A DNA stretch of 61,186 bases from Promicromonosporaceae bacterium (lineage in GTDB: Bacteria; Actinomycetota; Actinomycetes; Actinomycetales; Cellulomonadaceae). Every line of letters begins with the position of its first letter. The first letter of the stretch is position 1. The position numbers and the translations under genes were made by a program. Positions 29,299 through 46,990 of the stretch are shown in pieces. The notes beneath the pieces are model-generated. The model was not told the DNA's origin, made no database searches, and was given only the letters and a program-made list of their open reading frames with translations. The stretch covers positions 1 to 61,186 of the forward strand of contig WRHK01000020.1 in the NCBI GenBank assembly GCA_009783295.1. Reading direction: 5' to 3'.

Positions 29299-29481
29299 TC
29301 AGCGGTCGAGCGTCATCCGCGTCACGCTCTCCGCGTCCGGTGCTCCGGTCACGAGCCAGTAGGCCACGGCTGCGTCGCGCACCATCGTGGAACGCGCGAT
29401 ACCCCTCTGGCTTTCTGCCTGCGCCACGAGGTTCACCACAGCGTCGAGCACGGCAGCCTGAGCCGCTTGGGGGGTCGTCAT
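29299..29481 (-). CDS. small protein, last gene of the RiPP operon
   Basis: A 60-residue mostly helical protein (VLDAVVNLVAQAESQRG, AVAYWLVTGAPDAES). ATG 29481 has an AAGGA ribosome site about 8 bases upstream. It starts 25 bases after the YcaO stop on the same strand. No family recognised; its place in the operon suggests an accessory role such as immunity or chaperoning, but nothing in the sequence shows this. Confidence 0.5.
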   Translation of the reverse strand: MTTPQAAQAAVLDAVVNLVAQAESQRGIARSTMVRDAAVAYWLVTGAPDAESVTRMTLDR

Positions 29482-29506
29482 GTCGTCGTCCTTCCTGGGC
29501 TTGTCG

Positions 29507-30775
29507 CTAGATCAGTGTGTGCGAGAGCGTGGCGGGGGGGACGTCGTCCACGTCAACCAGCATCGCCCGCCACTGCTCGAGCCGCGGCTGGTGCACGCTC
29601 CACGGCTTGGTGTCGTCCATGCGGTACTGCTGGTGGCCGAGCACCAGTGCGCGCACCGCAGCCCAGCCTTGCTCGCGAACCGGGCCCGGCAGCCGGGCGG
29701 ACAGGTCCGCGACCAGCGGCGCCAGCCCGCGGTCGCGTAGCGCCCCGGCCAGGCCGCCAGCGGTCCAGGGTGCTGCCGTCGCCGGAACCTCCAAGTCGGC
29801 AGCGGCCACGACGCCGCCCTTCTCGACCCAGCCGAGGAAATGGCCGACGGCAGGCGCCTGCATGCACGCCCACGCTCGAGACTGCTCGTCGACGACGGGC
29901 CCGACGGGCGGGGCGGGCCGCTCCAGCAGTGGCAGGAGCGACGAGTACACCTGCAGAGCCTCCCGCAACGAGACCGCGACGCTCTCGCTCGGGTCTGTGG
30001 CGGCACGCGCCCCGGTTGCGAGCACCGGTGTGGCGCCCTCGTGACCGAGCACGAACGTCATCGCCGATGTCGTCCCGGGCAGATCGGTGGGCAGCAGCAC
30101 GGTGTACGCGACGGCGTCGTGCCGGTCGAGGTACTCGAGGACGTCGCGAGCCGCCGCGGTCTCGATGGACCCGAGGCGCAGCGCCAGACTGACGGCGTCG
30201 ACGAACGGGAGACGCGGCCGCAGCGACCAGCAGCACGATGATGCGTCCCGTTCCACCGACTCGCGCAGCGCGCGCTCGGCGGCGAACTCCCACCCGATTC
30301 CCGCGGCAGCGCCGGACGGTGACCCGTCGGCCCACGTGCAGGCCGGAACGGGGTCGGTCAGAAGGACGGCCGGCAGCGCCACGGGCCGTGGCCCGGCGCC
30401 CGTCAGCTCGACGGCGCGCGCCCACGCCAGGTCCTGGTGCTGCGCTCCTCGGCCGAGGCACCCGGCCGCGACGAGCCGCGCCAGGAGGTCGGCGTCGGCC
30501 GGGAGCGCCGCGTCGACGAGAGGGTCGCCCGCGGGCGCGACAAGGGAGAACCGCTCGACGGCCTCGCCGACTGCCCGGGTCATGGCGTCGACCCGGCTCC
30601 AGCCGTAGGCGCCCACGGCGTCGAACGGGGTCCTCTCCCCGCCGGCGGCCTCGCGCGCGTCGGACAGGCCCACGTCGACCGCCACCAGCCACAGCGGAAG
30701 GTCGTCGGGCGCCCGGACGGCGGACGCGCGCGCGAGGCCGTTCCGAGGGTCGAGCACACCGATCAGGTCAAGCAC
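29507..30775 (-). CDS. YcaO-domain RiPP cyclodehydratase/thioamidation-like enzyme
   Basis: A 422-residue YcaO protein. YcaO enzymes activate a peptide backbone amide with ATP to form azolines, thioamides or amidines. The ATP-binding glutamates and arginines appear as AVGEAVERFSL (about residue 70), ERALRESVERDAS (about 170) and SLREALQVYSSL (about 280). The C-terminus ends LSHTLI without the Pro-rich tail of azoline-forming members, and no fused E1-like domain is present, so an RRE-containing partner in the operon may supply substrate binding. GTG 30775 has the Shine-Dalgarno GGAGG and overlaps the preceding dehydrogenase gene by 13 bases. Confidence 0.82.
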   Translation of the reverse strand: MLDLIGVLDPRNGLARASAVRAPDDLPLWLVAVDVGLSDAREAAGGERTPFDAVGAYGWSRVDAMTRAVGEAVERFSLVAPAGDPLVDAALPADADLLARLVAAGCLGRGAQHQDLAWARAVELTGAGPRPVALPAVLLTDPVPACTWADGSPSGAAAGIGWEFAAERALRESVERDASSCCWSLRPRLPFVDAVSLALRLGSIETAAARDVLEYLDRHDAVAYTVLLPTDLPGTTSAMTFVLGHEGATPVLATGARAATDPSESVAVSLREALQVYSSLLPLLERPAPPVGPVVDEQSRAWACMQAPAVGHFLGWVEKGGVVAAADLEVPATAAPWTAGGLAGALRDRGLAPLVADLSARLPGPVREQGWAAVRALVLGHQQYRMDDTKPWSVHQPRLEQWRAMLVDVDDVPPATLSHTLI

Positions 30776-32037
30776 GTTGCCTCCATTCGTCGGGTCGCGA
30801 GGGACGCGCCGACCAGCCCGGCGACGTCTCGCGAGGTGATGCCGGCCAGGATCGGAAGCCCGCCGCCCCATCGGCGCATACAGCGGTACGCGACCTCGTC
30901 GGCGTCATCGGCGCCCCCGCGCCCGGGCGCGGGCAGGAGCGCGCAGACCCGGTCGATCATCTCGACCGGGCCCTCGCAGCCCAGGCCCGCGGCGAGGGCG
31001 CGCAACCGTCCGGCGTCGCCCCAGGCGCGTTCACCGGCGAGCACCGCGTCCGTCCACGCGGGCAGCAGCAGGGCCGTCGCGGCTGACTTCGAGATGCCGA
31101 GGACGTGCGCCAGCTCGGTCGCGACGAACCACACCGGGCTGGAGAACGACGCCCTGCCCACGTTGGCCCACCCGCCGTGCGAGTGCGCGCTGACCGCGGC
31201 GATCGCCATGCGGGTGAGCTCGTCGGGCGTAGCCGCGTCGCTCGTCGCCAGCGCGTCGGCGAGCCGCAGCAGCACGCGGAGGTCGGTCTGCGTCGTCTCG
31301 TCGCCCAGCACGTGCGTGAGCGGGTGGACCACGCCGGCCTGCCAGCGTGAGGCGAACGGCACGACCAGGCGTGCGGCCACCTCGACGACGGCCTCGCGTA
31401 CCAGGTGGGCGGGCAGCCCGGCGGTAGCGCGCGGGTCGCAGACGGCGACGTCGGGCCGCAGCCATGCACCGACGACGAGCCGCTTCCCGTCGTGCTCGAC
31501 GCAGGCCGCGGCGCTCATCTCAGCACCCGTGCCGAGCGTGGTGGGCACCGCCACAGTCACCGGGCGCGGCCGCGGCGCCTCCGACAGGAGGACGAGTCCG
31601 CTTCGGCCGGGGGCGCGCAGCAGCGCACGCTCGGCGTCGGGCAGCAGCGCCAGCACGCCGAGGTCGATCGTGGAGCCCCCGCCGAGGAGCACCACGACGT
31701 CGGCCGGGTCGCGCGCCCACGCCGAGGAAGCCCGCTCGACGTCGTCGATGTCGAGCGGGCGCGAAGCGTCGTGCCGCCACTCGTGCAGTGCGCATCCGTG
31801 CGTGGTCGCGACGGCGGCGACACGGTCGCGTAGCGAGCGGCCGTCGCCGCTCGCCACGACCGCGGCGTCGGCAACGAGTCGCAAGGCGCCGCCCGGACCG
31901 GCGCCGCCAGGTGGCCTGAGGGCCCCGCCGCGCTCGAGGGCGCCCTGGAGCGCCTGCTCGAGCGCGTCGGCGCCGGCCCACCAGGTGGCTCCGCCGCCCC
32001 ACCGCAGCACGGGTGGAGCGGTGTCGTCAGGACGCAT
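30763..32037 (-). CDS. daptide-type dehydrogenase (Fe-ADH family, MpaB-like)
   Basis: A 424-residue member of the iron-containing alcohol dehydrogenase fold. GGGSTIDLG and VPTTLGTGAEMS are the nucleotide-binding motifs; the helical domain starts after LPAHLV. The metal ligands of classical Fe-ADHs look altered: DALTH is replaced by Glu/Val/Ala residues and PHG is lost, while the AHVLG histidine remains. From recalled knowledge of daptide clusters, this family member takes part in oxidative decarboxylation of the C-terminal Thr to a ketone. ATG 32037 lies inside the end of the upstream gene (11-base overlap), consistent with translational coupling. Confidence 0.78.
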   Translation of the reverse strand: MRPDDTAPPVLRWGGGATWWAGADALEQALQGALERGGALRPPGGAGPGGALRLVADAAVVASGDGRSLRDRVAAVATTHGCALHEWRHDASRPLDIDDVERASSAWARDPADVVVLLGGGSTIDLGVLALLPDAERALLRAPGRSGLVLLSEAPRPRPVTVAVPTTLGTGAEMSAAACVEHDGKRLVVGAWLRPDVAVCDPRATAGLPAHLVREAVVEVAARLVVPFASRWQAGVVHPLTHVLGDETTQTDLRVLLRLADALATSDAATPDELTRMAIAAVSAHSHGGWANVGRASFSSPVWFVATELAHVLGISKSAATALLLPAWTDAVLAGERAWGDAGRLRALAAGLGCEGPVEMIDRVCALLPAPGRGGADDADEVAYRCMRRWGGGLPILAGITSRDVAGLVGASLATRRMEATCLT

Positions 32038-33046
32038 GCGCCAGCGCCACCCCTCGCGCGCCGAGCGCTTCGGCGAGCACCGACACCTCCTCGACGGTGC
32101 GCGCCGTGCCGCCGGCTGCCAGCAGCGCCGCCGCATCGTCGAGCGACGCTGAGGCCAGCATCGCCTCGACCACCTGGGCCGCGGCGCGCCCGACCTGGAT
32201 CGGCCGGCGGCACTGCGGGTCCGAGAGCAGGAACGTCTCCCCGTCGGTGACGAGGCAGAGGTCCGCGCGGGCAGGCGTCGACGGCGGCGTGAGCAGCGAC
32301 TGCTCCCCCGTGACCAGCACCCAGTCCCCGGGGCGGTGCCGCACGAGCGTTCGCACGAGCCGCAGGGCCGCGACGAAGGTCGCGAGCACGCCCGGCCTCG
32401 CCGTGGCGAGCACGTCGTGGACACCCTGTCCGAGGCACGGGTCCAGCCCTTCCCCCGCTGCGGCGCGCAGGACGGCCGGGGAGTCTTCGCTCGCACCGAG
32501 CATTCGACCCGCGGGCGAGGTCCGCACGGTCCCATCGGCGGCAACGTGCAGCCGGTGCAGGCCGCGCCCCGCGCAGAGCGCCTCACCAGCCACAGCGCAC
32601 TGGTCGCCCAGCTCAACCGATCGGTGGAGCAGCCCTCCGGGAAGCCGACCGGTCAGCAGCGTGTCCTGCGCGTGCGCCACCAGCGCGGCCGCGTCGGCCG
32701 GCGTGAACAACCGCACCGCGGTGGGGCCGACGATGCCGTGCTCTTGGAGCCGGGCGTACCCGACGCTCTCCAGGAAGAAGTCGGCGCCCAAGGCGACATC
32801 GGCGCCGTCGGCGGCGAGCGAGCCCGTCGCGCGCGCCCAGATCCCTGGCCCGTCGGGCAGGTCGCCGCGTGCACGCCGGTCCCCGGTGACGACGACGAGC
32901 GTGTCGTCGGTCACCAGGCCCGTCGCGGCCGCGCCGAGCCACGCGATCGCCGCCTCGCCCTCCGTGACCACGGTGCCCGGACCGCCCCGGACCCAGCCGG
33001 TCAGCCGGCCCGCCACGGCCTCTGCGACGTCGTTTGCGAGCGTCAT
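32027..33046 (-). CDS. daptide-type RiPP recognition protein (MpaC-like)
   Basis: A 339-residue soluble protein. The C-terminal 90 residues look like a RiPP recognition element: short beta strands (LCLVTDGETFLLSD, RRPIQVG) followed by helices. An upstream motif, ADGTVRTSPAGRMLG, recurs as ADGSVSTSPRGLSLG in the LLM-fusion protein at 42560, so the two share this module. The expected role is binding the precursor leader and delivering it to the dehydrogenase encoded next. The Shine-Dalgarno AAGGAGG lies 5 bases before ATG 33046. Confidence 0.65.
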   Translation of the reverse strand: MTLANDVAEAVAGRLTGWVRGGPGTVVTEGEAAIAWLGAAATGLVTDDTLVVVTGDRRARGDLPDGPGIWARATGSLAADGADVALGADFFLESVGYARLQEHGIVGPTAVRLFTPADAAALVAHAQDTLLTGRLPGGLLHRSVELGDQCAVAGEALCAGRGLHRLHVAADGTVRTSPAGRMLGASEDSPAVLRAAAGEGLDPCLGQGVHDVLATARPGVLATFVAALRLVRTLVRHRPGDWVLVTGEQSLLTPPSTPARADLCLVTDGETFLLSDPQCRRPIQVGRAAAQVVEAMLASASLDDAAALLAAGGTARTVEEVSVLAEALGARGVALAHAS

Positions 33047-33056
33047 GTCTCCTCCT

Positions 33057-34127
33057 TCATCGAGTGGCCGGCACGAGCGCCGGCACGACCTCGCGCGGTC
33101 CGAGGTGCCGGGTCACGGCGCGGAACTCAGCGAGTAGCCGCGTGCGATCCCGGTGCGTGACGGCGACGATCCGGGCGGCGTGCTCGGGCGTCGCACAGAA
33201 CAGGGGCTGGGTGACCGCGAACCCGTCCGCGTGTCGGGTGACGACCAGACCGACGCCCGGTGCGGCCGTGTCCGCCGCGAACCTCAGGTGCTCGGCGACT
33301 GGGTCTCCGTCCCAGCCCAGAGGGCGGACGAACTCGCCGCTCTCGACGAGCCGGGTGAGCCAGTCACGCATGTCCGCCAGGGCGGCTCGGCGCAGCGCAG
33401 CCTCGTGCGCTCGGTCCGCCAGCAGGCGGACGGCGTGGCGGGCGCTCTCGGCGTCGTCGAACAGCACGAGCGGGAGCCGGTAGCGTGCGCGGAGCGAGTG
33501 GCGGCGGCTGCCCTGGCGGGCCTGCATGAGGACGGTGCGCTCGTTCTGGGTCGTGAACCGGTGGCCCTGGTCCGCCATGCGCTGCCAAAGGTCCCAGTCC
33601 TCGAACCCCAGGACCTCGCGCCAGCCGCCCGCCTCGTCGACGAGCTCGCGGCGGTGCGAGACGCGCGACGTCTCGAAGACCGCGCTCAGGAGCTGGAGCT
33701 CCGGGTGCCAGCACATCGTGTAGTCCGCCGACCATGCCTGCACGGCACCCGCGAGGTCGCGGTACACGTTCCCCATGGCGATGAGCTCGGCACCCGCGTC
33801 GATCAGCGCGACGACGCGCTCGAGGTGGTCGGTCCGGTAACGGTCGTCGTGGTCGAGGTAGGCCACGACGTCGCCCCGGGCCTCGCCGAGCCCGAGGTTG
33901 CGCGGTTCGGAGGGGTCTCCGTGCGCGGAGGTCCGCACGAGCCGCACGCGGCGGTCCCTGCGGGCTGCGGCCTGCACGACGTCGTCGGTGTCGTCCGTGC
34001 TGCCGTCGGAGACGACAAGCAGCTCCCAGTCTTTGAAGCTCTGCGCGAGGACGGAGTCGATCGTGTCGCGGATCGCGGTCGACCGGTTGTACGTCGGGCA
34101 GATCACGGACACCCGCGGCACGCTCAC
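33057..34127 (-). CDS. family 2 glycosyltransferase
   Basis: A 356-residue GT-A fold enzyme. The N-terminal SVICPTYNRSTAIRDTIDSV and ELLVVSDGSTDDT segments are the GT2 nucleotide-sugar site, YLDHDDRYRTDHL holds the DxD metal motif, and FEDWDLWQRMA is the ED-like catalytic region. The C-terminal 130 residues are helical and unassigned. GTG 34127 overlaps the LanKC stop by 4 bases. Such genes occur next to LanKC in actinobacteria; whether the peptide itself is glycosylated is unknown. Confidence 0.85.
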   Translation of the reverse strand: MSVPRVSVICPTYNRSTAIRDTIDSVLAQSFKDWELLVVSDGSTDDTDDVVQAAARRDRRVRLVRTSAHGDPSEPRNLGLGEARGDVVAYLDHDDRYRTDHLERVVALIDAGAELIAMGNVYRDLAGAVQAWSADYTMCWHPELQLLSAVFETSRVSHRRELVDEAGGWREVLGFEDWDLWQRMADQGHRFTTQNERTVLMQARQGSRRHSLRARYRLPLVLFDDAESARHAVRLLADRAHEAALRRAALADMRDWLTRLVESGEFVRPLGWDGDPVAEHLRFAADTAAPGVGLVVTRHADGFAVTQPLFCATPEHAARIVAVTHRDRTRLLAEFRAVTRHLGPREVVPALVPATR

Positions 34128-36655
34128 CGGCAGGTCCCTAGCGCCAGCAGCACCCCGGCCGAGCCCGTGGCGAGGTCCGTCGAGAGCCGCAGCGCCTCGT
34201 GTCCGAGCACGACCGGCAGGCCGCCGAGCGACACGAGGTTCCGGCCGAACGCACCGAGGTGCTCGCGCAGTGCCGCGCGTGCGTCGTCGGCGAGCGCGCC
34301 CTCCACGTCCTCCGCGAGCCGGTGCAGTGCGAGGACGATGCCGGCGCGACCGTGGAACAGCCCTGCTTGCACCGCGAAGGACGACACGACCGTGCGGGCC
34401 AAGGCGTCGCGGGCGTCCTCGAGCTCGGGGGTGGGCCGGTGCCGTAGCAGCTCGAGCAGGGCGAGCAGCACGCCGCCGGTGCCGCCCGCGAGGAACGGCG
34501 GCCGCGTCTGCAGCACCTGCGGTGCGGCGGGGTCCCAGCCAAAGTCCGCGAGGTCTGCACGAAGGGCCTCCTCGGCGCGCGCGACGTGCGCTGCGTCACC
34601 GGTGCGCTCGTAGAGCCTCGTCCAGAACAGGCTGACGCCCGACCGTCCGTGGACGAGCCCCGGGCGCAGGACTCCGCGGCCGCTGTCGGCGACCCGCTGC
34701 GCAACGATGTCGCCCACCGCGACCGCACCCGCAACTGCCTCCTCCTCGCCTGTCAGGTCGGCGAGCCCGAGGTGGGCCAGGCCGATGCCGGCCAGCCCTC
34801 CGTACAGGTCGAGGCCAACATCGTCGACCGGCGTCTGGTCCACGCGGCGCAGGAGCTCTGCTGCCCGGTCCGCGCGGCCGACGCGCGCGAGCACGGACGC
34901 CATCCCGGCGAACCCGTCGAGCAACCCGGCGGAGACCGGCTGGGGGGACTGGAGCAGCCGCACCACGGCGGCGTCGAGCCAGTCCAGGTGCTCGCCCGGC
35001 ACGGCGACGTCGACTCGGCCGAGCGCGCCGATCACGCCCGCGGCGCCGGTCGCGACGTTCACGCCACCGCCCGGGACGTAGAACTGCTCCGCGTCGCCCG
35101 GGTAGAGGCGGTCGAGGCGTTCAAGGTCCGCGGCGGCGAGGATGCCGCCGGCGAGCAGGTCGCGGCACGCGGGCCAGGTGTCCTCGGCCGGAGTCGGCCA
35201 CGGCTGCCGCTCGGCCGTGCCTCCCAGGGCGGACGGCCCCTCGTGGGGGGCGGGCCCCAGGTCGCGCAGCACCGACTCCCGAAACCCGTCGCCGACGGGG
35301 AACGTGGCCGTGACCAGGTCGATCGTCTCGGCGAGCTTCTCGCGACCCCAGGTGAGCGTGTTGCCGAACGGGACGAACACCGCCAGCCGCAGCACGCCCA
35401 GGGCGTACCTGTCGACCGCGGGGCCCACATATCCGGGTGGCGCCATGAACCCGGCTGCACCGATGCCCTGAACGGCCTGGTCCGCCGACGGCGTCGCCGT
35501 CTCGAAGTCGATGAGCCGCACCGTGCCGTCGTCGGCGACGAGGACGTTGCCGGGGTGCAGGTCGCCGTAGGTGACGCCCCGGGCGTGGATGCCGGTGACG
35601 GCGGCCTCGACCTGGTCGAGAACGTGCTGCGACCAGGCGACGAAGTCTGCGAGCGCCGCGGGCGACCGGTCGCCGCGCAGTACCGGGTTGCGGCGCAGGG
35701 ATGCGTGCGACAGGGGCATGCCGTCCACGTACTCGCGAACGAGGAACTGGTGCTCGTTGCCGGGCCGGTGGTCGACCAGCTCCGGGATCCCTGGCACGCC
35801 CGCGAGCTGCTCAAGGGCCCACCGCTCGTGCTCGAGGCGCGTGACGGCGTCGTCCCCGTGCGCGTCGAGGCCCGCGAGCGGACGCGCCTCCCGCAGCAGT
35901 ACCTCGCGGCCGTCGCGCGTGTCCGTCCCGAGGTAGACGCCGCCACCGTTGGAGAAGTGCAGCGCCTTCGTCACCCGGTAGGGGAAGTCGCGAAGGCGTC
36001 CTGCGGCGCGCGCCTCGAGCGCGGGGCCGAGAACTGCTGGGATCGGGACCCACGGCGGCGGGCGGAAGCTCGGTCCGCGGTGGTCCTCGACGAGCTGTCC
36101 GTCGGGGTCGGTGATGAGGTACTCGACCTGCCCGCGGTCGTTGCGCCGCGTGATCGCCTTGAACCCGCCGTAGCGCACGTAGAGCGGGCCGTCCTCCCAG
36201 CGAAGGTCGCTGAGGATGTACGGGCCATGCAGCCCGCGCAGCCGCTCACCGAGGTCGCGCAGAAGGTTCTCGAGCTCGTGCTCGTCCGCGGGGTAGATGG
36301 TCACGAACTTGCCGCTCGACGAGCGCTCGCCGTACTTGCTGCTGCGCCGCACGAGGACCTCGGGTGACGTGAGGAACTTGAACGGCAGATGATGCTCGAC
36401 GCAGTAGTCCCGCGTGCGGCGCAGGATCTCCTCGGCGTCGGCCACCGACGCCGAGACGTGCACCTTCCAGCCCTGGGCGGGCAGCTCGGCGGCGCGCGGT
36501 GTGAGGCTGGCCCACTCCCCGTTGCCGCCCGCGTCCCAGCCGTCGGGGGTGGGGGGAAGGACGTCGCGGTACGCGGGGCCGCCGGTGCGACCGTGCGGGA
36601 GGTCGAAGAATGGCGTGTCGGCCCGGCAGTACCGCAGGTGGCGAAGGACGTTCAC
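34124..36655 (-). CDS. lanKC: class III lanthipeptide synthetase (LanKC)
   Basis: An 843-residue three-domain enzyme. The lyase domain (about 1-200) contains HLPFKFLTS and RRSSKYGERSSSGKFVTIYP. The Ser/Thr-kinase domain (about 225-500) has VTYGDLHPGNVLV and LIDFETA. The cyclase-like domain (about 530-843) has GLFHGRAGI and VHGRSGVS, where the zinc-binding Cys/His set of class I, II and IV cyclases is missing, which defines class III. It phosphorylates Ser/Thr and eliminates phosphate to give dehydroalanine/dehydrobutyrine, then may catalyse ring closure. GTG 36655 is chosen because the lyase domain starts there; upstream frame sequence lies within the M50 gene. No precursor Cys is available in this operon. 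Confidence 0.87.
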   Translation of the reverse strand: MNVLRHLRYCRADTPFFDLPHGRTGGPAYRDVLPPTPDGWDAGGNGEWASLTPRAAELPAQGWKVHVSASVADAEEILRRTRDYCVEHHLPFKFLTSPEVLVRRSSKYGERSSSGKFVTIYPADEHELENLLRDLGERLRGLHGPYILSDLRWEDGPLYVRYGGFKAITRRNDRGQVEYLITDPDGQLVEDHRGPSFRPPPWVPIPAVLGPALEARAAGRLRDFPYRVTKALHFSNGGGVYLGTDTRDGREVLLREARPLAGLDAHGDDAVTRLEHERWALEQLAGVPGIPELVDHRPGNEHQFLVREYVDGMPLSHASLRRNPVLRGDRSPAALADFVAWSQHVLDQVEAAVTGIHARGVTYGDLHPGNVLVADDGTVRLIDFETATPSADQAVQGIGAAGFMAPPGYVGPAVDRYALGVLRLAVFVPFGNTLTWGREKLAETIDLVTATFPVGDGFRESVLRDLGPAPHEGPSALGGTAERQPWPTPAEDTWPACRDLLAGGILAAADLERLDRLYPGDAEQFYVPGGGVNVATGAAGVIGALGRVDVAVPGEHLDWLDAAVVRLLQSPQPVSAGLLDGFAGMASVLARVGRADRAAELLRRVDQTPVDDVGLDLYGGLAGIGLAHLGLADLTGEEEAVAGAVAVGDIVAQRVADSGRGVLRPGLVHGRSGVSLFWTRLYERTGDAAHVARAEEALRADLADFGWDPAAPQVLQTRPPFLAGGTGGVLLALLELLRHRPTPELEDARDALARTVVSSFAVQAGLFHGRAGIVLALHRLAEDVEGALADDARAALREHLGAFGRNLVSLGGLPVVLGHEALRLSTDLATGSAGVLLALGTCR

Positions 36656-36669
36656 TGTGGTCTCCGCTT

Positions 36670-38307
36670 TCAGCGCCAGAACGGTGCGAGGTAGTTGAGG
36701 TAGAGCCACCGCCACGCCGGCCGGGTCCCGGCGTCGGCGACGGCGAAGCCTGTCGCCGACGCGGGGCGGGTGTCGGTGAGCCGGACGATGGTGACGGGCA
36801 GCTCGCCCTCGAGGTCGACGACCGGGAAGAGGGCCACGACAGGCGCCGTCCCCGGCTGCGGTGCGCCAGCCACGTGCACGGTCGCGAGGGGGCGGCTTGC
36901 CACGATCCCACGCCGCTCGAGCCTCACGGACGTGCCGGGGACGAGCGCGTCTGCGTCGGCGGATCGCGCGAGAACAAGCTGAGTGCCGCCGTCGCGCTGC
37001 ACGAACCCGCCCGTGACGGTGTAGGGCACGGGGGTGAACGCCATCGCGCCGACCGCGACGGTCACCAGCCCAGACACCAGCGCGCACCGTGCGCGGCTCG
37101 CGCCCGCTGCCAGCGCCTCGGCGAGCACTCGAGAGGCCTCGGTCAGGACGAACCGTGCGACCGCCGCGAGCAGGCACACCATCAGCACCGCTCCGACGAC
37201 GCCGAGCCCGAGCACCAGCGGTAGCCACAGGCCCAGCGCGGCCGCGACCAGGACAGCGGGAAAGAGGAGGGACGCGAGTCCGAAGGGTACGGCCCAGGGC
37301 CGGTCGGGCAGCTCGGAGGCGTAGCGACCGCCGAACAGTGCCCTCGCGACGGCGCGGCGCGCGTCGGTCATGGCCCGTTCGCGCAGGAACGGCACGTCCA
37401 GATGGCTCATGAGGGCGATGTACCCGTCGAGCTTGACGAGCGGGACGAGGTTCATCGTGGCGGTCACCACAGTGCTGGCGGCGAAGAGCAGCAGGGCGGA
37501 ACGCCAGTCGGGCCGCTCCGGCCCGACGACCAGCGCGGCCAGCGATGCCGCCGCGGCCGCGACGAGCTGCACCACGATCCCGGCGATCGCCACGCGCACG
37601 CGGGCGCGCCGATCGCGCAGCCGCCAGCCGTCGGTGACATCGCAGAAGAACGCAGGCGTGAGGTAGAAGAGCATGACGCCGAGACGGCTTGGCCGCCCGC
37701 CGGCGTACGCCAGCGCGGCCCCGTGCCCCACCTCATGCAAGGCCGTCGTGAGGAACGACGCCGCGACGACGGCGAGGAGCGCCCCGAGCGGCAGCGGGCG
37801 GGACAGCGCGTCGAGCAGCGCACCGCCTTGGACGGCCAGGACCACCAGCCCGACGGCCGCGAACGCGAGCGCCGCGACGACGACCCGCCGGTGCAGCAGG
37901 ACACGGGTCACCGGCTGCGCGACCTCGAACGCCCGCTCGGGGCGTGCCACAGTGAGCTGGAACGTCAGCGGCGGGACGTAGGTGAACAGGCGCGCACGCG
38001 CGGGCCCCCGCATGACACCGTCGTCGAGGAACCCCGCGCGCTGGAGCGACTCGAGCGCACGGACGACCGTCCCGGCGTCCCAGCGGCCCGCGCCAAGCGC
38101 GTCCACCAGGTCGTCGACCGTTCGGGTGCCGTCCAGCAGCATCAGCAGCCGCAGCATGTCCGCGGCGACCCGGACATAACGGCCGTCGGCGGTGCGCACC
38201 ACCGACGGTCCTCCGTCGGACCCCTGGTCGAGCTCCGTGCCCTCGGCAACCCGTGGCCGCTCGGGCAGGGGAGCGAGCGCGGGAGGCGCCTGGGTGCGTG
38301 CGCTCAC
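36670..38307 (-). CDS. daptide-type M50 intramembrane metalloprotease (MpaP-like)
   Basis: A 545-residue membrane protein. Residues about 30-105 look like a winged-helix/PqqD-type domain (VRVAADMLRLLMLLDGTRTVDDLVDAL). About eight hydrophobic helices follow. LHEVGHG (HExxH, about residue 190) and LVPLVKLDGY (site-2-protease LDG motif, about residue 294) are the zinc ligands. The C-terminal 130 residues are beta-rich, resembling a membrane-fusion or barrel-sandwich domain. It probably cleaves the leader at the membrane before export. GTG 38307 overlaps the permease stop by 4 bases. Confidence 0.82.
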   Translation of the reverse strand: MSARTQAPPALAPLPERPRVAEGTELDQGSDGGPSVVRTADGRYVRVAADMLRLLMLLDGTRTVDDLVDALGAGRWDAGTVVRALESLQRAGFLDDGVMRGPARARLFTYVPPLTFQLTVARPERAFEVAQPVTRVLLHRRVVVAALAFAAVGLVVLAVQGGALLDALSRPLPLGALLAVVAASFLTTALHEVGHGAALAYAGGRPSRLGVMLFYLTPAFFCDVTDGWRLRDRRARVRVAIAGIVVQLVAAAAASLAALVVGPERPDWRSALLLFAASTVVTATMNLVPLVKLDGYIALMSHLDVPFLRERAMTDARRAVARALFGGRYASELPDRPWAVPFGLASLLFPAVLVAAALGLWLPLVLGLGVVGAVLMVCLLAAVARFVLTEASRVLAEALAAGASRARCALVSGLVTVAVGAMAFTPVPYTVTGGFVQRDGGTQLVLARSADADALVPGTSVRLERRGIVASRPLATVHVAGAPQPGTAPVVALFPVVDLEGELPVTIVRLTDTRPASATGFAVADAGTRPAWRWLYLNYLAPFWR

Positions 38308-39021
38308 AGCACGTCCCGGCGCCTGGCGGCGGCCCATGCCGCGCAGGTCCCGACGGCCAACCAGACGACGATGACCGCGAGCGCGGCCGGCACCGCGAGC
38401 AGACCTGGACGCCCGTCACCATAGACGGAGCCCATCGCCATCGTGAGTGCGTACCTGCCCACACGCGGGGCGATGTGCTGCACCAGCTCGTCGACGAGCA
38501 GCGCCTGCACCAGCAGGATCCCGATCGCGCCGACCTGGCTGCGGACCAGCCAACCGACGGCCGCGCCCCACGGCGCCGCGAGCGCCGTCACGACGAAGAC
38601 ACCGAGCACCGTGTGCGTCGTCGACGGGCCCCAGACGGGGGCGATGTCCGCGGACCGGAGGAACACCCACGGCGACGCAGCGGCGAGGCCTCCGGCCAGG
38701 ACGCCGTAGGCGAGGCCCATCCCCACGGAGACGAGCATCGACACGGCCATGCCTCGCGCGCGGCTCCCGCTGACGTGCACGATGCGGCCGACCGCGCCTG
38801 TGGCGTGGTCGCGTGTGACGACGTTGGCCGCCCACAGCGCCGAGAAGAGCAGTAGCGTGAACCAGACGCGCGCCACGCCGTCGGTTGCCTCCTGGGCGGA
38901 GAGCCCGTCCGTGGAGAGCGCGAACCCCACCGCCGCGAGCATGCATGCGGCGACCCCGCCGAGCGCGAGGAGCAGCCAGCTCCAGCCTGTGAACGTCCGC
39001 TGCACGGCGGACACGAGCAGG

Positions 39022-39029
<8 letters not shown>
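38304..39029 (-). CDS. RiPP ABC exporter permease
   Basis: A 241-residue membrane protein with six hydrophobic segments and an ABC-2 permease style. It overlaps the ATPase gene by 8 bases and the protease gene by 4. The likely job is export of, or self-protection against, the mature membrane-active peptide. Confidence 0.8.
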
Positions 39030-39749
<720 letters not shown>

Positions 39750-39753
<4 letters not shown>

Positions 39754-39944
39754 CGTCTGCCCCGGGCGGCGTTGAGCGTCACCTGGGCGATGAATGCCAG
39801 CAGCAGGACGATTGTCACGACCAGCCCCGCCTGCTTCGCGGCACCGTCGAGCGTGGTCTGCGTGATGGCACCGGCCACGATGAGGAAGGGGAGAACGAGG
39901 GCGAGGGATCGGTTGTTTCGGTACCACCGGACTCGAGGGGACAC
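39750..39944 (-). CDS. small two-helix membrane protein of the RiPP operon
   Basis: A 64-residue protein with two predicted transmembrane helices (SLALVLPFLIVAGAITQ and AGLVVTIVLLLAFIAQVTL). GTG 39944 has the Shine-Dalgarno AAGGAG 5 bases upstream. It lies between the precursor genes and the exporter and overlaps the ATPase gene. A third exporter subunit or immunity peptide is plausible. Confidence 0.65.
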
Positions 39945-39982
39945 GAGCACTCCTTCGTCGATCTGTTTCACTTGAGGTGGTG

Positions 39983-40021
39983 CCCGGCCCGGGGGCGACT
40001 CTCTCTCGCCCCCGAGCCGGG
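39983..40021 (-). terminator. attenuator hairpin after precursor genes
   Basis: A 16-bp stem with one mismatch and a 7-base loop lies 20-60 bases after the second precursor stop and before the transport and enzyme genes. The arms begin CCCGGC and end GCCGGG; no T-run. It is likely to terminate most transcripts or protect the precursor mRNA, raising precursor over enzyme levels. Confidence 0.65.
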
Positions 40022-40041
40022 ACACCGTGAGTTGCCGGCGG

Positions 40042-40200
40042 TCAGGTGACCACAGCGCTCGCGACTCCGCCGTAGATCGCAGTCACAGCGAGCGAAACGA
40101 GCACGCCGTCCTTGAAGTTGTCCCAGAAGCCAGGGGCGTCCATGGGCTCAAGCTCCTGCATGTCGAGCTCGAGCGGGGCCAGGTCCGTCGTGTTGTTCAT
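40042..40200 (-). CDS. daptide-type precursor peptide A2
   Basis: A 52-residue peptide. The leader, residues 1-27, ends in LAPLELDMQELEPMDAPGFW plus D and closely matches the A1 leader. The core (about 28-52) is hydrophobic with few charges, contains two Ser and two Thr, no Cys, and ends in AVVT with the terminal Thr required for daptide C-terminal chemistry. It is shorter than A1. ATG 40200 has the strong ribosome site GAGAGGAGG. It lies 53 bases after the A1 stop and is followed by the hairpin. Confidence 0.85.
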   Translation of the reverse strand: MNNTTDLAPLELDMQELEPMDAPGFWDNFKDGVLVSLAVTAIYGGVASAVVT

Positions 40201-40253
40201 CGAGCACCTCCTCTCCAGAGGTCGGTCTGTCGTGGCACGGTGGCGTCACCGGG

Positions 40254-40442
40254 TCACGTGATGACGATCGAGGAGACGGAGACGGTCACGACGACGTAGC
40301 TGACGGCGCCGCTGACGGCCGCGCCACTGATGTAGCCCGTCACGTCCCAGAAGCCGGGGGCCTCCATCGCCTCGAGCTCCTGCATCTCGAGCTCGAGCGG
40401 TGCGAGGATCTCGCGCGCCTGAACATCGGTCAGGGTGTCCAT
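40254..40442 (-). CDS. daptide-type precursor peptide A1
   Basis: A 62-residue peptide. The leader has an acidic conserved block, APLELEMQELEAMEAPGFW, then D33. The core (about 34-62) reads VTGYISGAAVSGAVSYVVV, TVSVSSIVIT and is beta-branched and hydrophobic with no charge and no Cys. It carries five Ser and three Thr before the final Thr. These are possible substrates for LanKC dehydration, and the terminal Thr for the dehydrogenase/aminotransferase/methyltransferase route. The strong Shine-Dalgarno AAAGGAGG lies about 6 bases ahead of ATG 40442. Confidence 0.87.
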   Translation of the reverse strand: MDTLTDVQAREILAPLELEMQELEAMEAPGFWDVTGYISGAAVSGAVSYVVVTVSVSSIVIT

Positions 40443-40497
40443 GTCATTCCTCCTTTCGGTGTGTGGTCGGGGCGGTGGAACCGGACCGGACTCCGCT

Positions 40498-41769
40498 CTA
40501 GGCGGCCTCCGCACCGGTGGCTTGGTGGGCGAGCTCGTCGAGGCCCGCGCGCAGCGCCGCGAACAGCTCCGCGATGTCGGCGGGCGTGGACGTCAGCGCA
40601 GGGACGAGCTGGACCCCGTCGATCCCGGGGTGGACGACGACGCCCGCGCGCCTGACGGCCGCGACCAGGTCGCCGACCCGGTCGGCGGGAAGCAGTGCGC
40701 CGTCGTCGCCGCGTACGACGACGGCACGGAAACACCCCGTGCCGCGCGTAGCCGCCACAGCGGGGACAGTGGCGAGCAGGTCCGCGATCCCTGCGTCAAG
40801 CAGAGAGGCGACGCCGCGCCCGGCCGCGACAGCGTCGAGCCTGGTCATCTCCTGCAGCGTCGCGGAGATCGCGGCCGCGGCCACCGGCGTACCGGCCTGC
40901 GTCTCGCCGTGGATCAGCACAGCGCGGCGCTCATGGAACTCACGTGCCACCGACTCCGAGACCAGCACCGCGGACGCGGCGCACGTGCCGTTCGTCAGGC
41001 CCTTGGAGGTCAGCAGCACGTCCGGGGAGCCCGGCCACGACTCGCTCGCAAACAGTCTCCCGGTACGGCCGAACCCCGTCGCGACCTCGTCGGCGACCAG
41101 CAGGTAGCCGTGCTCGTCGCGCCCCGCCACGAGCTTCGCGACGAACTCCTCCGCCAGCGGGATCGCGCCCGTCCCGAGCAGCGGCTCGACGACGACGGCG
41201 GCGATCCGGTCGCCCTGCCGCGCCAGCAGCGCCTCGAGAGCGGCGACGTCGTTCGGCGCCACGTGTCGCACCATCCGCTGGTCGACCCCGTAGAGCCGCT
41301 GCCCCAGGTCCTCGCCGGTCAGCGAGAAGCTGCCGTAGGTCAGGCCGTGGTAGCTGCCCGTCAGCCCGACCACGACCTGGCGCCGCTCCTGCCCTCGGAG
41401 CACCTGGTAGTGCCGCGCCAGCTTCATGACCAGGTCGTTCGCGGCGCCGCCCGACGTCGAGAACAGCGCCCGGGCGAAGCGCCCGCCCGTCGCCTCGACG
41501 AGTGCCTCGGCTGCGCGGCGGGCCCAGACGCTCTCGAACCGGAACGTGTTGAGGTAGGACGCGTCGCGCAGGGCGGCCGCGGACGCCTCGGCGATCGCCT
41601 CGTTGCCGTACCCCAGGTTGGTGTTCCACAGGCCGCTTGTCCCGTCCAGGAGCGTGCGACCGTCTGCGAGGCGCAGCCGGACCCCGTGCGCCGAGGCCAG
41701 GCAGAGGTTGTCGTCGCCGTGGCTTGCCGGAGCGAGGAAGAACGGCCAGAGAGCAGGAGCGCGGGTCAC
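40498..41769 (-). CDS. daptide-type class III aminotransferase (MpaD-like)
   Basis: A 423-residue PLP-dependent fold-type I aminotransferase. It has the GTSGLWNTNLGYG N-terminal block, STSGGAANDLVMKLAR phosphate-binding region, ADEVATGFGRTG with the PLP-binding Asp, and TSKGLTNG with the Schiff-base Lys. In daptide biosynthesis it converts the C-terminal ketone to an amine. ATG/GTG at 41769 overlaps the methyltransferase stop by 4 bases. The 55-base gap that follows leads to precursor A1. Confidence 0.88.
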   Translation of the reverse strand: MTRAPALWPFFLAPASHGDDNLCLASAHGVRLRLADGRTLLDGTSGLWNTNLGYGNEAIAEASAAALRDASYLNTFRFESVWARRAAEALVEATGGRFARALFSTSGGAANDLVMKLARHYQVLRGQERRQVVVGLTGSYHGLTYGSFSLTGEDLGQRLYGVDQRMVRHVAPNDVAALEALLARQGDRIAAVVVEPLLGTGAIPLAEEFVAKLVAGRDEHGYLLVADEVATGFGRTGRLFASESWPGSPDVLLTSKGLTNGTCAASAVLVSESVAREFHERRAVLIHGETQAGTPVAAAAISATLQEMTRLDAVAAGRGVASLLDAGIADLLATVPAVAATRGTGCFRAVVVRGDDGALLPADRVGDLVAAVRRAGVVVHPGIDGVQLVPALTSTPADIAELFAALRAGLDELAHQATGAEAA

Positions 41770-42563
41770 GGGCGCACCCCCGCCTCGAGGAGCACCGCCG
41801 GGCGGCCCGCGCCCGCCGGGGCCAGCTCGTGCGTCGCGAGCACGTCAAGCCCGTGCTGATGCAGCTCGGCCTCGAGCGTCCCGCGCGGCACGACCGTGAC
41901 GACCGACGTACACACCTGGACGCGCCCGTCGGTGTCCGGCGTGGGGACGATCACCACGGTGCACTCGGTCCTGGACCCCGACCAGTCCTCGAAGAGCGTG
42001 TAGCGGCGGCCGCTCGCCCCCGTGAGCTCCTCGCCTGGACCGTTCGCGCCAGCCGACCGCTGCACGGTCGACAGCAAGAACCGTCCCCCGGGAGCCAGGT
42101 GCCGCGCGACGGCCGCGAAGAGCTCCTGTCGGCCGTCTGCGTCCAGCAGCGACACCGAAGTCGTACCGAGCACGATGGCGTCGAACGTGCGGCCGAGGTC
42201 GAACGAGCGCATATCCCCCACCACGGTGCGGCAGCGCCTCGAGAGCCGGGGCGGGAGCGCCTCGAGCCGGCTGTCCAGCAACCCGAGCATGCTCGCGGAG
42301 AGGTCGAGCGCCACGACCTCCAGTCCCAGCACCAGCAGCGGGATGGTGAGCCGCCCCGAGCCGGCGGCGAGCTCCAGCACCGGCCCGCGCACTCCGCGCA
42401 GCTGAGTCGCCAGCTCCGAGACCTCGTGCCGGTCCCTGTCGGCGAGATCGTGGTAGATCGCCGCGCCTACGGCGTCGTACACGTCGTGGAACGTCACTGC
42501 GTCGCCGTGCGCCTCCACTGCCGCCTGCGCGGGTCCTGTGAGCCGAACGGTCGCGGCGCTCAC
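41766..42563 (-). CDS. daptide-type SAM-dependent methyltransferase (MpaM-like)
   Basis: A 265-residue class I methyltransferase. VLELAAGSGRLTIPLL is motif I, VVALDLSASML the acidic end of strand 2, and RTFDAIVLGTTSVSLL motif II/IV. In daptide clusters this enzyme dimethylates the new C-terminal amine. GTG 42563 overlaps the LLM-fusion stop (GTGA). Confidence 0.88.
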   Translation of the reverse strand: MSAATVRLTGPAQAAVEAHGDAVTFHDVYDAVGAAIYHDLADRDRHEVSELATQLRGVRGPVLELAAGSGRLTIPLLVLGLEVVALDLSASMLGLLDSRLEALPPRLSRRCRTVVGDMRSFDLGRTFDAIVLGTTSVSLLDADGRQELFAAVARHLAPGGRFLLSTVQRSAGANGPGEELTGASGRRYTLFEDWSGSRTECTVVIVPTPDTDGRVQVCTSVVTVVPRGTLEAELHQHGLDVLATHELAPAGAGRPAVLLEAGVRP

Positions 42564-44647
42564 GCACGCTCCAGAGCGGGAGCCGCGAGCACGAGGCCGG
42601 CGGCGCGCAATGCCTCGTCGACGCGGGCGAGGTCGGCAATGCTGGCTGCTCCCGCCCCGGACGCCGCCTCGACGCCGCCTGCGACCAGGAGCAGCTCAGC
42701 CAGCTCGCCGACCCTCCGGCTGACACGGATCGTGCGCCGCGAGGCCATGTCGGCGACGTATGCACCGTCGTCGGACCACAGGAGCAGGACAGGCGAGTGA
42801 TCGTCGGCGCCGTCGAGCGCAGCGGCGGCGTCGCCGAGCCGACCGCCGAAGCCGGACATCCTGACACCTGTGCCACCGCGCGCCGTGAGCTCCTTGACAA
42901 CGTCGATGCCGACCACGTACCGGCCGAGCCACGGGCGGTCGCGAAGCGCGGCCACCCGCTCCTCGTGCGGAATCACGCCTGCCAGAGCGACCGCGCACGG
43001 CGGCGCTCCGGTGGCGTTCGCGTCGTCGAATGCGGCGACGAGCTCGGCGAGCGGGTCACCGACGGTGCCGAGCGACAGGCCGCGGGGCGACGTGGACACC
43101 GACCCGTCGGCGCGGACGACGAGGCGGTCGCGCGGTCCGGCCCCCGTGGTCGGGGCACCGAACGCGCACGCGTCCGCGAGCAGGACGGACGGCTCGAGCA
43201 GGAACTGCGGGACGCGCCCCGTGGCACGTGCTTCATCGGCGTCCTGAAGAAAGGCCGCGAGGTCCCCCGGATCGGTGATGCGCGCGAACGTCGGCGCGAG
43301 CACGGAGACGTACGCGCACGAGCGGTACTCCAGCGTCTGGAGAAAGACCCACTCGTCGACGGCGGCCTCGTCGCCGGGCTCCGTCAGAGAGCCGCGGTAT
43401 GTGGCGACACGCTGATCGCGGTGCGCCGCCGGAGCGAGCACGATGGTGTCGGCGTCCACGGCGTCGGAGGCGAGCAAGGAGTCGAGGTGCATCTCGTCCT
43501 CGACGACGACGATGGCGGAGCCGGGCGCGCCGGCGGCGCGCGAACGGGCCGGGCGAGCAGTCCCCCAGGCGAGCAAACGCTCCCTCAGTCTGGTCGTGTC
43601 CTGATGCATGATCGTCATCTCCTGTCGGCGTTCCATGTCAGCGTGCTCGGGGAGGTCCGTGGGCGAGGGCATCGCCGACCGCGTGGCCCAGGCGTCGAGA
43701 ACCGCCTCGACGTCCTCCAGCGCCTGACGCGCACCGAGCGTGCGGGCTACCCCGGTCGTGTTGAGCACGACCTCGTCGACGCCTGCCGCAGAAAAGGCGG
43801 CGAGCTGCTCCGCAATCTCGTCAGGTGTGCCGAGCAGGAACGCGCCGCCGTCGATCAGTGCGTGCGCGTCCGCAGCGGCATCGATGCCACCGACGGCGAT
43901 TCCCGACCGAGTCAGCATGCTGACGTAGTGCGGGAGCGCGAGATGTGCCGCGCAGCTGCCGAGAACCACATCCTGCGGTCGGCGGCCCGGCTGGTCGAGC
44001 GCGACGGGCACGATCGCGACCAGCCTCGGCTGCGGGCGGTTGACGGCCTCCGCGCCCTCGGCCGTCCCTGCGGCGACGACGTCGCCGACGTACGAGGCGG
44101 GCGTCAGCCAGGTGATCGCGGCGTCGGCGACCTCACCCGCGAGCCTCGCCATGCCGGCGCGCAGGACGCCGAGGCCGATGTCGACGCGCGGGGCCGCGAC
44201 ACGCGGCAACGACGCCTCGACTTGGAAGTAGTCGCCCTCGAGCGTGACCACGCCGTCGTCGAGCAGGCCACGGACGACAGTCATGTACTCGCGCGCCGCG
44301 GTCAGGGGGCTGGCGTAAGGGGCCCCGAGCAGCGCGCGCTGGAAGGAGCGCGCGCCGGGACCGAAGCCGGCGAGCACCGGCCGACCGGTGGCGACAGCGA
44401 GGCTCCGCGCCTGGACCGCCGCCTCGTACGGATGACGCATCGGCATGAGCGTCACGCCCGTCCCGGCCGCGAAGGGACCCATGGCGGCAGCGGCCGAGAA
44501 CGTCTGGAACGTCTCCAGCCCAAGCGATTGCCCCTGCCAGAGCCTGCAGGCGCGACCAGCCCGCACCAGGTCAGCGAACGGCTGGACGTGATCCACGCGC
44601 TGTGGGACGAAGGGGACAAGTACGCCCAGATCCATCTGCCCGCTCAT
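42560..44647 (-). CDS. LLM-class oxidoreductase fused to RiPP-recognition-like domain
   Basis: A 695-residue fusion. Residues about 5-325 are luciferase-like monooxygenase fold: LGVLVPFVPQ, GTGVTLMPMRHPYEAAVQAR, GFGPGARSF, EGDYFQVEA, and LLGTPDEIAEQLAAFSAAGV are typical of F420- or FMN-using members. A linker (about 330-370) leads to a region shared with the recognition protein at 32027, including ADGSVSTSPRGLSLG and a C-terminal strand-helix module (WSDDGAYVADMASRRTIRV) resembling an RRE. LLM/F420 reductases of the LxmJ type reduce dehydroamino acids in lanthipeptides; by analogy this could make D-Ala/D-Abu. It is the first gene of the operon. ATG 44635 is an alternative start. Confidence 0.72.
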   Translation of the reverse strand: MSGQMDLGVLVPFVPQRVDHVQPFADLVRAGRACRLWQGQSLGLETFQTFSAAAAMGPFAAGTGVTLMPMRHPYEAAVQARSLAVATGRPVLAGFGPGARSFQRALLGAPYASPLTAAREYMTVVRGLLDDGVVTLEGDYFQVEASLPRVAAPRVDIGLGVLRAGMARLAGEVADAAITWLTPASYVGDVVAAGTAEGAEAVNRPQPRLVAIVPVALDQPGRRPQDVVLGSCAAHLALPHYVSMLTRSGIAVGGIDAAADAHALIDGGAFLLGTPDEIAEQLAAFSAAGVDEVVLNTTGVARTLGARQALEDVEAVLDAWATRSAMPSPTDLPEHADMERRQEMTIMHQDTTRLRERLLAWGTARPARSRAAGAPGSAIVVVEDEMHLDSLLASDAVDADTIVLAPAAHRDQRVATYRGSLTEPGDEAAVDEWVFLQTLEYRSCAYVSVLAPTFARITDPGDLAAFLQDADEARATGRVPQFLLEPSVLLADACAFGAPTTGAGPRDRLVVRADGSVSTSPRGLSLGTVGDPLAELVAAFDDANATGAPPCAVALAGVIPHEERVAALRDRPWLGRYVVGIDVVKELTARGGTGVRMSGFGGRLGDAAAALDGADDHSPVLLLWSDDGAYVADMASRRTIRVSRRVGELAELLLVAGGVEAASGAGAASIADLARVDEALRAAGLVLAAPALERA

Positions 44648-45909: not shown

Positions 45910-46990
45910 ATGCCTGATTCCGGCAACGCCTTGCCCCGACTCGCTGCGCGTCCGGTTGGGGAACGCGGTCGAGGGACTGACCCCCGGCTACTTCGCGCTC
46001 GTCATGGCGACCGGGATCATCTCGGCCGGCATGAGCCTCGAGGGGTTCGCGGTTCTCTCTAGCGTCCTGCTGGTGGTGTGCGCGGTCGCGTTCGTGACGC
46101 TGCTGTCGCTGACCGTGTGGCGGGTCGTGGCCTACCGCGGCGCGGCCGCCGAGGACTTCATGGACCCGCGCCGCGCCTTCGGGTACTTCACCTACGTCGC
46201 CGGCACCAACGTGTTCGGGGTGCGGCTCGCCCTGGCAGGCCACCACACGGCCACGGCCGTGCTGCTGACGTTCACGTTCCTGGCCTGGGTGGTGCTGGGC
46301 TACGTCGTGCCGTGGACGGCCGTGCTCGGGCGGCAGGAGCGCCCGGTCGTGATCACCGCGAACGGCACCTGGTTCATCTGGGTGGTGGCCAGCCAGTCCG
46401 TCGCGGTGGCCGCGGCCACCATCGAGCCCGTCTTTGAGGCCGGCCGCCGCGAGCTCGCGCTGCTCGCCGTCGTGTCGTGGTCGGTCGGGGTGTTCCTGTA
46501 CGGGGCCGCCGGGGTGCTCGTCGCGCTGCGGCTGATGCTGTACAAGTTCGGGCCGGAGGAGCTGACGCCGCCGTACTGGGTCTCGATGGGCGCGCTCGCC
46601 ATCACGGTGCTCGCCGGGGCCCGCATCGTCGAGATGGCCGACGCCCCGATGGTGCACGCCACCCGCGGCCTGATCGCCGGCCTCGCCGTGGTGTTCTGGG
46701 CCTTCGCGACCTGGCTGATCCCCGTGCTGGTCGCCGCGGGCTGGTGCCGCCACGTGCGACGCCGCGTGCCGCTGCGGTACGAGGCCACGCTGTGGAGCAT
46801 CATCTTCCCGCTCGGCATGTACGGCGTCGCGAGCATCTACCTGGGGCGCGCCGACACGCTGCCGATCGTCGAGAACATCGGCCGCGTCGACCTCTGGGTG
46901 GCGTTCGGGGCATGGGCCGTGGTGCTCGCAGCGATGTGCCTGCACGTCTACCAGACGGTGTTCGCGCGGGGCCCCGCCGCGGGTGCGTGA
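45910..46990 (+). CDS. TDT-family (tellurite resistance / C4-dicarboxylate) transporter, apparent frameshift near start
   Basis: About 358 residues with ten hydrophobic segments. GLTPGYFALVMATGIISAGM near the N-terminus and GTNVFGVRLALAG are typical of TehA/Mae1/SLAC1-type channels. The continuous frame begins only with a weak TTG at 45956. ATG 45910, with a TACGAT box 6 bases upstream, opens MPDSGNALP. Removing one C from the CCCC run at 45934-45937 joins it to DSLRVRLGNAVEGL, so I read one base too many there. Substrate unknown. Confidence 0.72.

Follow-up and report, generated by a model that had tools for sequence, protein, structure and literature searches.

A daptide operon with two DapB proteins and a C-terminal tailoring module that was probably acquired from another daptide lineage

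The window analyzed here, 61,186 nucleotides of contig WRHK01000020.1 (assembly GCA_009783295.1, Promicromonosporaceae bacterium), carries on its minus strand a daptide operon (positions 29299–44647), a single tight train of 15 genes for the production of a ribosomally synthesized and post-translationally modified peptide (RiPP). Their order is DapJ-DapB1, DapM, DapD, DapA1, DapA2, a 64-aa protein, DapT1, DapT2, DapP, LanKC (DapKC), a family 2 glycosyltransferase (GT2), DapB2, DapC, the YcaO protein DapY and a 60-aa protein; this layout is more than chance, since G541, a genome from another genus of the same family, repeats the gene order. The operon is probably of the type that carries the luciferase-like (LLM) reductase DapJ together with LanKC (J/KC type; Dap genes are given below by their last letters where convenient), in which the C-terminal tailoring module DapB2-DapC-DapY has been replaced from another daptide lineage. 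By their affinities DapJ, DapB1, LanKC and DapP are of the J/KC kind, as are DapM and DapD with less support.

The original prediction, made from the window sequence and its open reading frames (ORFs), placed the daptide families together with LanKC, a YcaO, an LLM protein and a GT2 on the minus strand, and all of these are present. Its proposal that one product class bears both C-terminal and Ser modifications also finds support in the recurrence of the gene set in G541 and in the Ser-rich cores of J/KC loci. Its further suggestion, that an enzyme set of this breadth would be a new RiPP type, is rejected: published daptide clusters carry KC, J and Y (Ren 2023, PMC10036551; Dommaraju 2025, PMC12338566, both in the parts consulted), and five other loci surveyed here also have J, KC, Y and GT2. 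The enzyme mix is already catalogued, and the distinctive part of the window operon is its two DapBs, which by their trees are of different ancestry.

Two lineages within one operon

Loci for comparison came from a search with the DapB model NF041823 over overlapping samples of the window's relatives, class, family and order, which gave 59 genomes with a match at E ≤ 0.001. Of these, 55 were annotated (G098, G329 and G686, with weak matches, and G490, in which nothing matched, were left out), and they contain 57 loci, 55 of them with DapD. In the other loci, genes were identified from BLAST searches that used the window proteins as queries (E 1e-4), an approach that misses other glycosyltransferases and distant YcaOs, and loci at contig or stretch ends (e.g., that of G148) are incomplete. 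On these terms J and KC are found together in 34 of the 55 DapD loci (alone in 11, with Y in nine, with GT2 in eight and with both in six), and the loci without the pair have the core only (eight), Y (five), Y and GT2 (five), GT2 (two) or J only (one). The count of LanKC, YcaO and LLM co-occurrence that had been proposed as a check on the original prediction thus finds a recurring combination, J, KC and Y in 15 of the 55 loci. The six loci that add GT2 are those of the window, G541, G303, G1340, G1338 and G1406, and in the last four the GT2 gene is on the opposite strand.

The common J/KC order is J-B-M-D-C-A-T1-T2-P-KC; in some loci KC is followed by Y or GT2. The window order is J-B-M-D-A-T1-T2-P-KC-GT2-B-C-Y, with no DapC between DapD and the precursors. 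The three genes at its end are DapB2 (32027–33046), a stand-alone recognition protein that matches nearly the whole of NF041823 at 142.8 bits against a cut-off of 150 (its C-terminal RiPP recognition element, or RRE, part alone gives 30 bits); DapC (30763–32037), a putative oxidative decarboxylase of the PF00465 type that spans nearly the whole of NF041822 at 240.6 bits against a cut-off of 300; and DapY (29507–30775), a YcaO (PF02624). Each of these three pairs with its G541 counterpart and groups with the proteins of G204, G110 and G122 in its tree (33 rows for B, 28 for C and 15 for Y; support 100/99, 100/96 and 99/98, respectively). The Y rows are YcaOs from daptide loci, with the published TfDapY and SaDapY not knowingly among them. 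The same placements were obtained in larger sets (24 rows for Y), which omit G598, G654, G1102, G927, G748, G041 and rows below 75% of the query length; in these, the J/KC loci G1389 and G1407 lie outside the main J/KC group for C, and G913 and G858 do so for Y. DapB1 falls within the group of J-locus DapBs (91/91; G041 is also inside), DapP groups with J/KC DapPs (99/98), DapM with J/KC DapMs (91/90), and DapD lies in a group of 15 (82/86) that includes G041; J and KC were found only in J/KC loci in this set.

Approximately unbiased (AU) tests, whose groups were defined once the trees had been inspected, reject forcing C into the J/KC clade (p = 3.8e-07, or 2.3e-06 without G602), placing all J-locus DapBs together with the B2s included (p = 2.9e-07), placing Y with six J/KC Ys (p = 3.6e-04) and placing P with the donor-like group described below (p = 8e-04). 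A private duplication, in which all five DapBs of the window and G541 would belong together, is ruled out by the tree and by the AU test (p = 7e-75).

The loci of G110, G122 and G204, whose DapB, DapC and DapY share a lineage with window B2, C and Y, are here called donor-like. Unlike in the window, J, KC and GT2 were not found in the locus stretches examined, and the cores found there (two in G204, one in G122) have 0–1 Ser, unlike the window's six and two. A J/KC set hidden off the examined contigs was considered and rejected, as a search of the three whole genomes with the window LanKC (J was not searched for in that way) found no full-length LanKC; the only matches were kinase-domain stretches (query residues 192–435, ≤43 bits), and the control G541 matched residues 5–839. 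Gene order in G110 and G122 is P-B-M-D-C-Y. Loss of C from the J/KC order, together with loss of M and D from this donor-like order so that B-C-Y remains, gives the window order.

The operon of G541, on a single 3.57-Mb contig, has the order J-B, M, D, A1, A2, T1, T2, P, KC, GT2, B2, C, Y and a small protein, as in the window, but contains three DapBs (in order, a diverged one fused in frame to J, a free B1 and B2) where the window has two. Judged from this shared layout, the swap would either predate the split of the two genera or have passed between them. G1338 (family code f35) also has J, KC, Y and GT2; unlike the window, it has one DapB, separate from J, a DapC of its own that lies between DapD and the precursors, a DapY that groups with other J/KC Ys, and GT2 on the other strand. 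It may give a picture of the unmixed operon of this peptide pair. Another rearranged daptide operon is seen in G646 (L074, L089), where DapB and DapM follow KC and Y, apart from J and D.

The fused and free DapBs

DapJ-DapB1 (42560–44647) is a single open frame of 695 aa, with an LLM reductase at about residues 1–330 (PF00296 at 62–292) and a full DapB at about 355–684 (NF041823 at 355–684, 314 bits against the cut-off of 150). The LLM fusion of the original prediction is thus real, and its fused half turned out to be a full-length DapB, so that the window has two DapBs, B1 fused to DapJ and B2 free-standing. J and DapB are joined in a single ORF in 2 of the 36 loci with a J match, those of the window and G541, and only these two among the annotated loci have more than one DapB gene (two and three, respectively) within one locus. 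Two DapB pieces that abut in the model in G041 look like one split gene, and the two DapBs present in each of G1302 and G1373 are located on separate contigs. A DUF-RRE (domain of unknown function) fusion and an RRE-protease fusion appear in the passages seen of Ren (2023, PMC10036551). A J-DapB fusion was not found in those passages, nor was one, or a second DapB, found by word search of the main text of PMC12338566, where "fusion" refers to laboratory constructs; supplements aside, this is no proof that none is in print.

DapB and DapC are described as a two-component decarboxylase (Dommaraju 2025, PMC12338566, in part), and because the published proteins act together, a foreign DapC would be expected to bring its own DapB. 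With the DapC of its own lineage gone, DapB1 would be left attached to the reductase, and the fusion points to a present or additional role for it in offering the leader to that enzyme. We propose that LanKC would phosphorylate and eliminate Ser in both cores, and that DapJ would reduce the resulting dehydroalanines to D-Ala with the fused DapB1 holding the leader (ELExMEAP-like motif). At the other end of the peptide, DapC would oxidatively decarboxylate the C-terminal Thr as offered by its partner DapB2. The terminus so formed would be transaminated by DapD and methylated by DapM, and an imidazoline with the preceding Ile or Val may be closed by DapY. DapP would cut the leader, the exporter would release the peptides, and GT2 may glycosylate the peptide. 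Both DapBs would be retained since each serves a different enzyme. In the passages seen of PMC12338566, DapY acts once B, C and D have done so, and a separate partner for it is not mentioned. Unlike the DapY of the tfDap system, whose end is proline-rich (PxPxP; PMC12338566), the window DapY lacks a terminal proline motif and ends in LSHTLI, and that of G541 in LSHSLI; the other 13 of the 15 YcaO rows end in a proline pattern (e.g., PHPLP, PHPLI or PQPLV). The product of the window and G541 DapYs may therefore differ or be absent. The full proposal, that a natural module swap left two DapBs of different ancestry to split the leader between the reductase on one side and DapC/YcaO on the other, with an altered YcaO whose C-terminal group may differ from imidazoline, is tentative, and we would put it at somewhat under an even chance.

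Several points weigh against a module replacement followed by such a division of labor. The donor-like group has three members, and the contigs that carry these loci break off shortly upstream of P or the precursors. Outside the window and G541, the row closest by branching in the D tree is that of G041, which is without J/KC (89/94). Placement in the donor group is not rejected by the AU test for D (p = 0.059) and is only weakly rejected for M (p = 0.032). DapB1 retains 47 of the 56 positions conserved in J/KC DapBs and so shows no visible release from DapC. At the junction, an AGGAG lies nine bases ahead of an in-frame ATG, and DapB1 may also be made alone from this internal start. The fused partner of J also differs, being B1 in the window and the diverged third DapB in G541. 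A decay of DapB1 after the loss of its DapC was considered separately and is unsupported; its 47 positions compare with a median of 54 (48–56) among 31 reference rows, but these rows defined the 56 positions and hence score high by construction.

It is conceivable, but in our estimate unlikely, that the window has an ordinary J/KC/Y daptide operon with a redundant extra DapB and with a fusion that amounts to the neutral loss of a stop codon, without any division of labor. J, KC and Y do occur together in 15 of 55 loci, and fusion would be an easy step: J and B are close neighbors in most J loci, and in L005 and L006, where they are separate ORFs, those of L005 are in the same frame with a stop between them. 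However, the second DapB shares its different ancestry with C and Y and is not a simple duplication (p = 7e-75, above), and multiple DapB genes per locus have been kept in two genera. Less probable again is a different split, with the fused DapB1 still serving DapC or several enzymes (LanKC included) and DapB2 mainly serving DapY. The 47 retained positions of DapB1 would fit this, as would the location of B2 upstream of both C and Y, but C and B2 are of one ancestry, DapB and DapC act jointly in the published work, and Y is described as acting after B, C and D with no named partner (PMC12338566, in part). An assembly or contamination artefact is very improbable and largely refuted, for although the draft assembly of the window genome comprises 119 contigs, the window genes are open with no internal stops and the same layout with an in-frame J-DapB fusion lies on the 3.57-Mb contig of G541.

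If the module replacement is correct, the operon would represent a natural case in which a RiPP pathway exchanged an entire end-modification module, recognition protein included, and in which a tailoring reductase carries its own leader-binding partner. This bears on how hybrid RiPP pathways arise and on whether DapB-DapC pairs might be swapped by design.

Precursors, other genes and flanks

Two Thr-ending precursors had been predicted, and both match NF041808 above its cut-off of 25 bits: DapA1 (40254–40442; 30.4 bits), with orthologues in G541 and G1338, and DapA2 (40042–40200; 40.8 bits), with an orthologue in G541. Both have an ELExMEAP-like leader motif and a C-terminal Thr; cleavage after ELEAMEAP would give the DapA1 core GFWDVTGYISGAAVSGAVSYVVVTVSVSSIVIT, and cleavage after ELEPMDAP the DapA2 core GFWDNFKDGVLVSLAVTAIYGGVASAVVT. 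The G1338 precursors GWWSVTGYISGAGVGGAVTYSVVATAISAT and GFWSNFKEGVSVSVAVSAVYGGVASAISAT are clearly related to A1 and A2. The DapA2 core is identical to that of G541 at 27 of 29 residues (two differences) and the enzymes are 48–72% identical, so this peptide seems to be under strong constraint.

The A1 core contains six Ser and the A2 core two, and neither contains the Cys of a lanthipeptide, so no lanthionine rings are expected. Precursors were found in 50 of the 55 loci and none in the other five; the filter applied to cores drops those with C, H or R followed by a later R, or with PP, and it cut some cores four residues early, that of window A2 included. The mean Ser fraction of cores is 0.151 in the 34 J+KC loci and 0.028 in the 16 loci without the pair (Mann-Whitney p = 1.6e-08, a guide only as the loci are related), and none of the 120 filtered cores contains Cys. 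Such Ser-rich, Cys-free cores fit a conversion of Ser through dehydroalanine to D-Ala and not ring formation. Ala directly precedes the final Thr in 6 of 50 cores from loci with a YcaO and in 39 of 70 from loci without one (Fisher p = 1e-06, uncorrected for relatedness), a pattern that fits YcaO action on that amide.

The remaining core genes are DapM (41766–42563), an N-methyltransferase (NF041820, 278 bits), DapD (40498–41769), a class III aminotransferase (NF041821, 601 bits), and DapP (36670–38337), an intramembrane metalloprotease with an HEVGH motif (NF041824, 428 bits), all above cut-off. The exporter consists of the ATPase DapT1 (39022–39753; PF00005) and the membrane protein DapT2 (38304–39029), which had no significant family match in Pfam and NCBIfam scans and was assigned by position and by homology across loci. 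The class III lanthionine synthetase LanKC (34124–36655; NF038151, 884 bits) has RamC_N, Pkinase and LANC_like domains (PF25816, PF00069 and PF05147); the Lys of its kinase motif LLKEARP is Arg in 5 of 15 aligned rows (window, G541, G303, G286 and G657). GT2 occupies 33057–34127 (PF00535). DapC retains GGGSTID, of which the GGG nucleotide motif is common to the aligned DapCs. At the positions that we take to be the metal ligands of iron-containing alcohol dehydrogenases, the ligands are largely replaced in the 28 DapC rows. Such replacement is also published for TfDapC (PMC12338566, in part). A His is present in the window (ELAH) and G541 (ELSH) DapCs at a position where the other 26 of the 28 rows have another residue. 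DapY retains the E-rich motifs.

The original prediction gave about 15 genes with overlaps of 4–14 bases. Its count is correct once the 64-aa gene is added, but the overlaps range from 4 to at most 34 bases and several junctions have none. With the chosen start codons, on which all overlap lengths depend, four-base overlaps lie at DapJ-DapB1/DapM, DapM/DapD, LanKC/GT2 and the 64-aa gene/DapT1; the others are T1/T2 (8), B2/C (11), C/Y (13) and T2/P (at most 34 if P uses its first ATG), and there is no overlap at P/KC, GT2/B2, DapY/60-aa gene or the precursors. LanKC (GTG at 36655; longest ORF from 37228) and DapC have starts placed well inside their longest ORFs; the start chosen for DapY is a GTG at 30775 (longest ORF from 30871) and that for DapT1 an ATG at 39753 (longest ORF from 39927).

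The 64-aa protein (39750–39944; GTG start picked by eye) has two hydrophobic stretches, as in a two-helix protein, is conserved with G541, and matches PF07291 below cut-off; it is possibly an immunity protein or part of the exporter. Among 44 loci examined, 23 have a small hydrophobic ORF immediately ahead of T1, as judged from position and hydropathy alone; the one in G073 adjoins an ATPase gene away from the operon. The last gene of the operon (29299–29481) encodes the 60-aa protein, which has no Pfam or NCBIfam match; its counterpart at the same place in G541 is 54% identical, with a conserved RSTMVRDAA stretch.

In 10 other genomes of the genus, the right-flank gene (45956–46990) is found in one and the left-flank gene (25383–26333) in none. 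An empty insertion site was not found in the genus, G004 sharing only the one right-flank gene, and ARAGORN found no tRNA in the window. An integrase-core transposase gene (48582–50117, minus strand), presumably IS21-like, lies about 4 kb beyond the operon.

Comparison with known daptide systems

The published daptide clusters of Ren (2023, PMC10036551, as far as its passages were seen) include subgroups with LanKC/LanJC pairs, YcaO, luciferase-like proteins and glycosyltransferases. Among them the sca cluster of Streptomyces capuensis has, like the window, a LanKC/LanJC pair with the daptide core, and in its product five L-Ser are converted to Ala and the C-terminus is dimethyl-1,2-propanediamine (Dmp). 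Unlike in the window, a YcaO or a second DapB is not mentioned for it in those passages. Another parallel is tfDap of Thermobifida fusca (Dommaraju 2025, PMC12338566); "glycosyl" occurs 0 times in the main text on it, and the window has a GT2. Like the window, tfDap has DapB, C, D, M, P, T1 and T2 with a LanKC homologue (KC), the luciferase-like DapJ and a YcaO (Y), which in tfDap makes a C-terminal imidazoline; it is described with one DapB and five precursors, whereas the window has two DapBs and two precursors.

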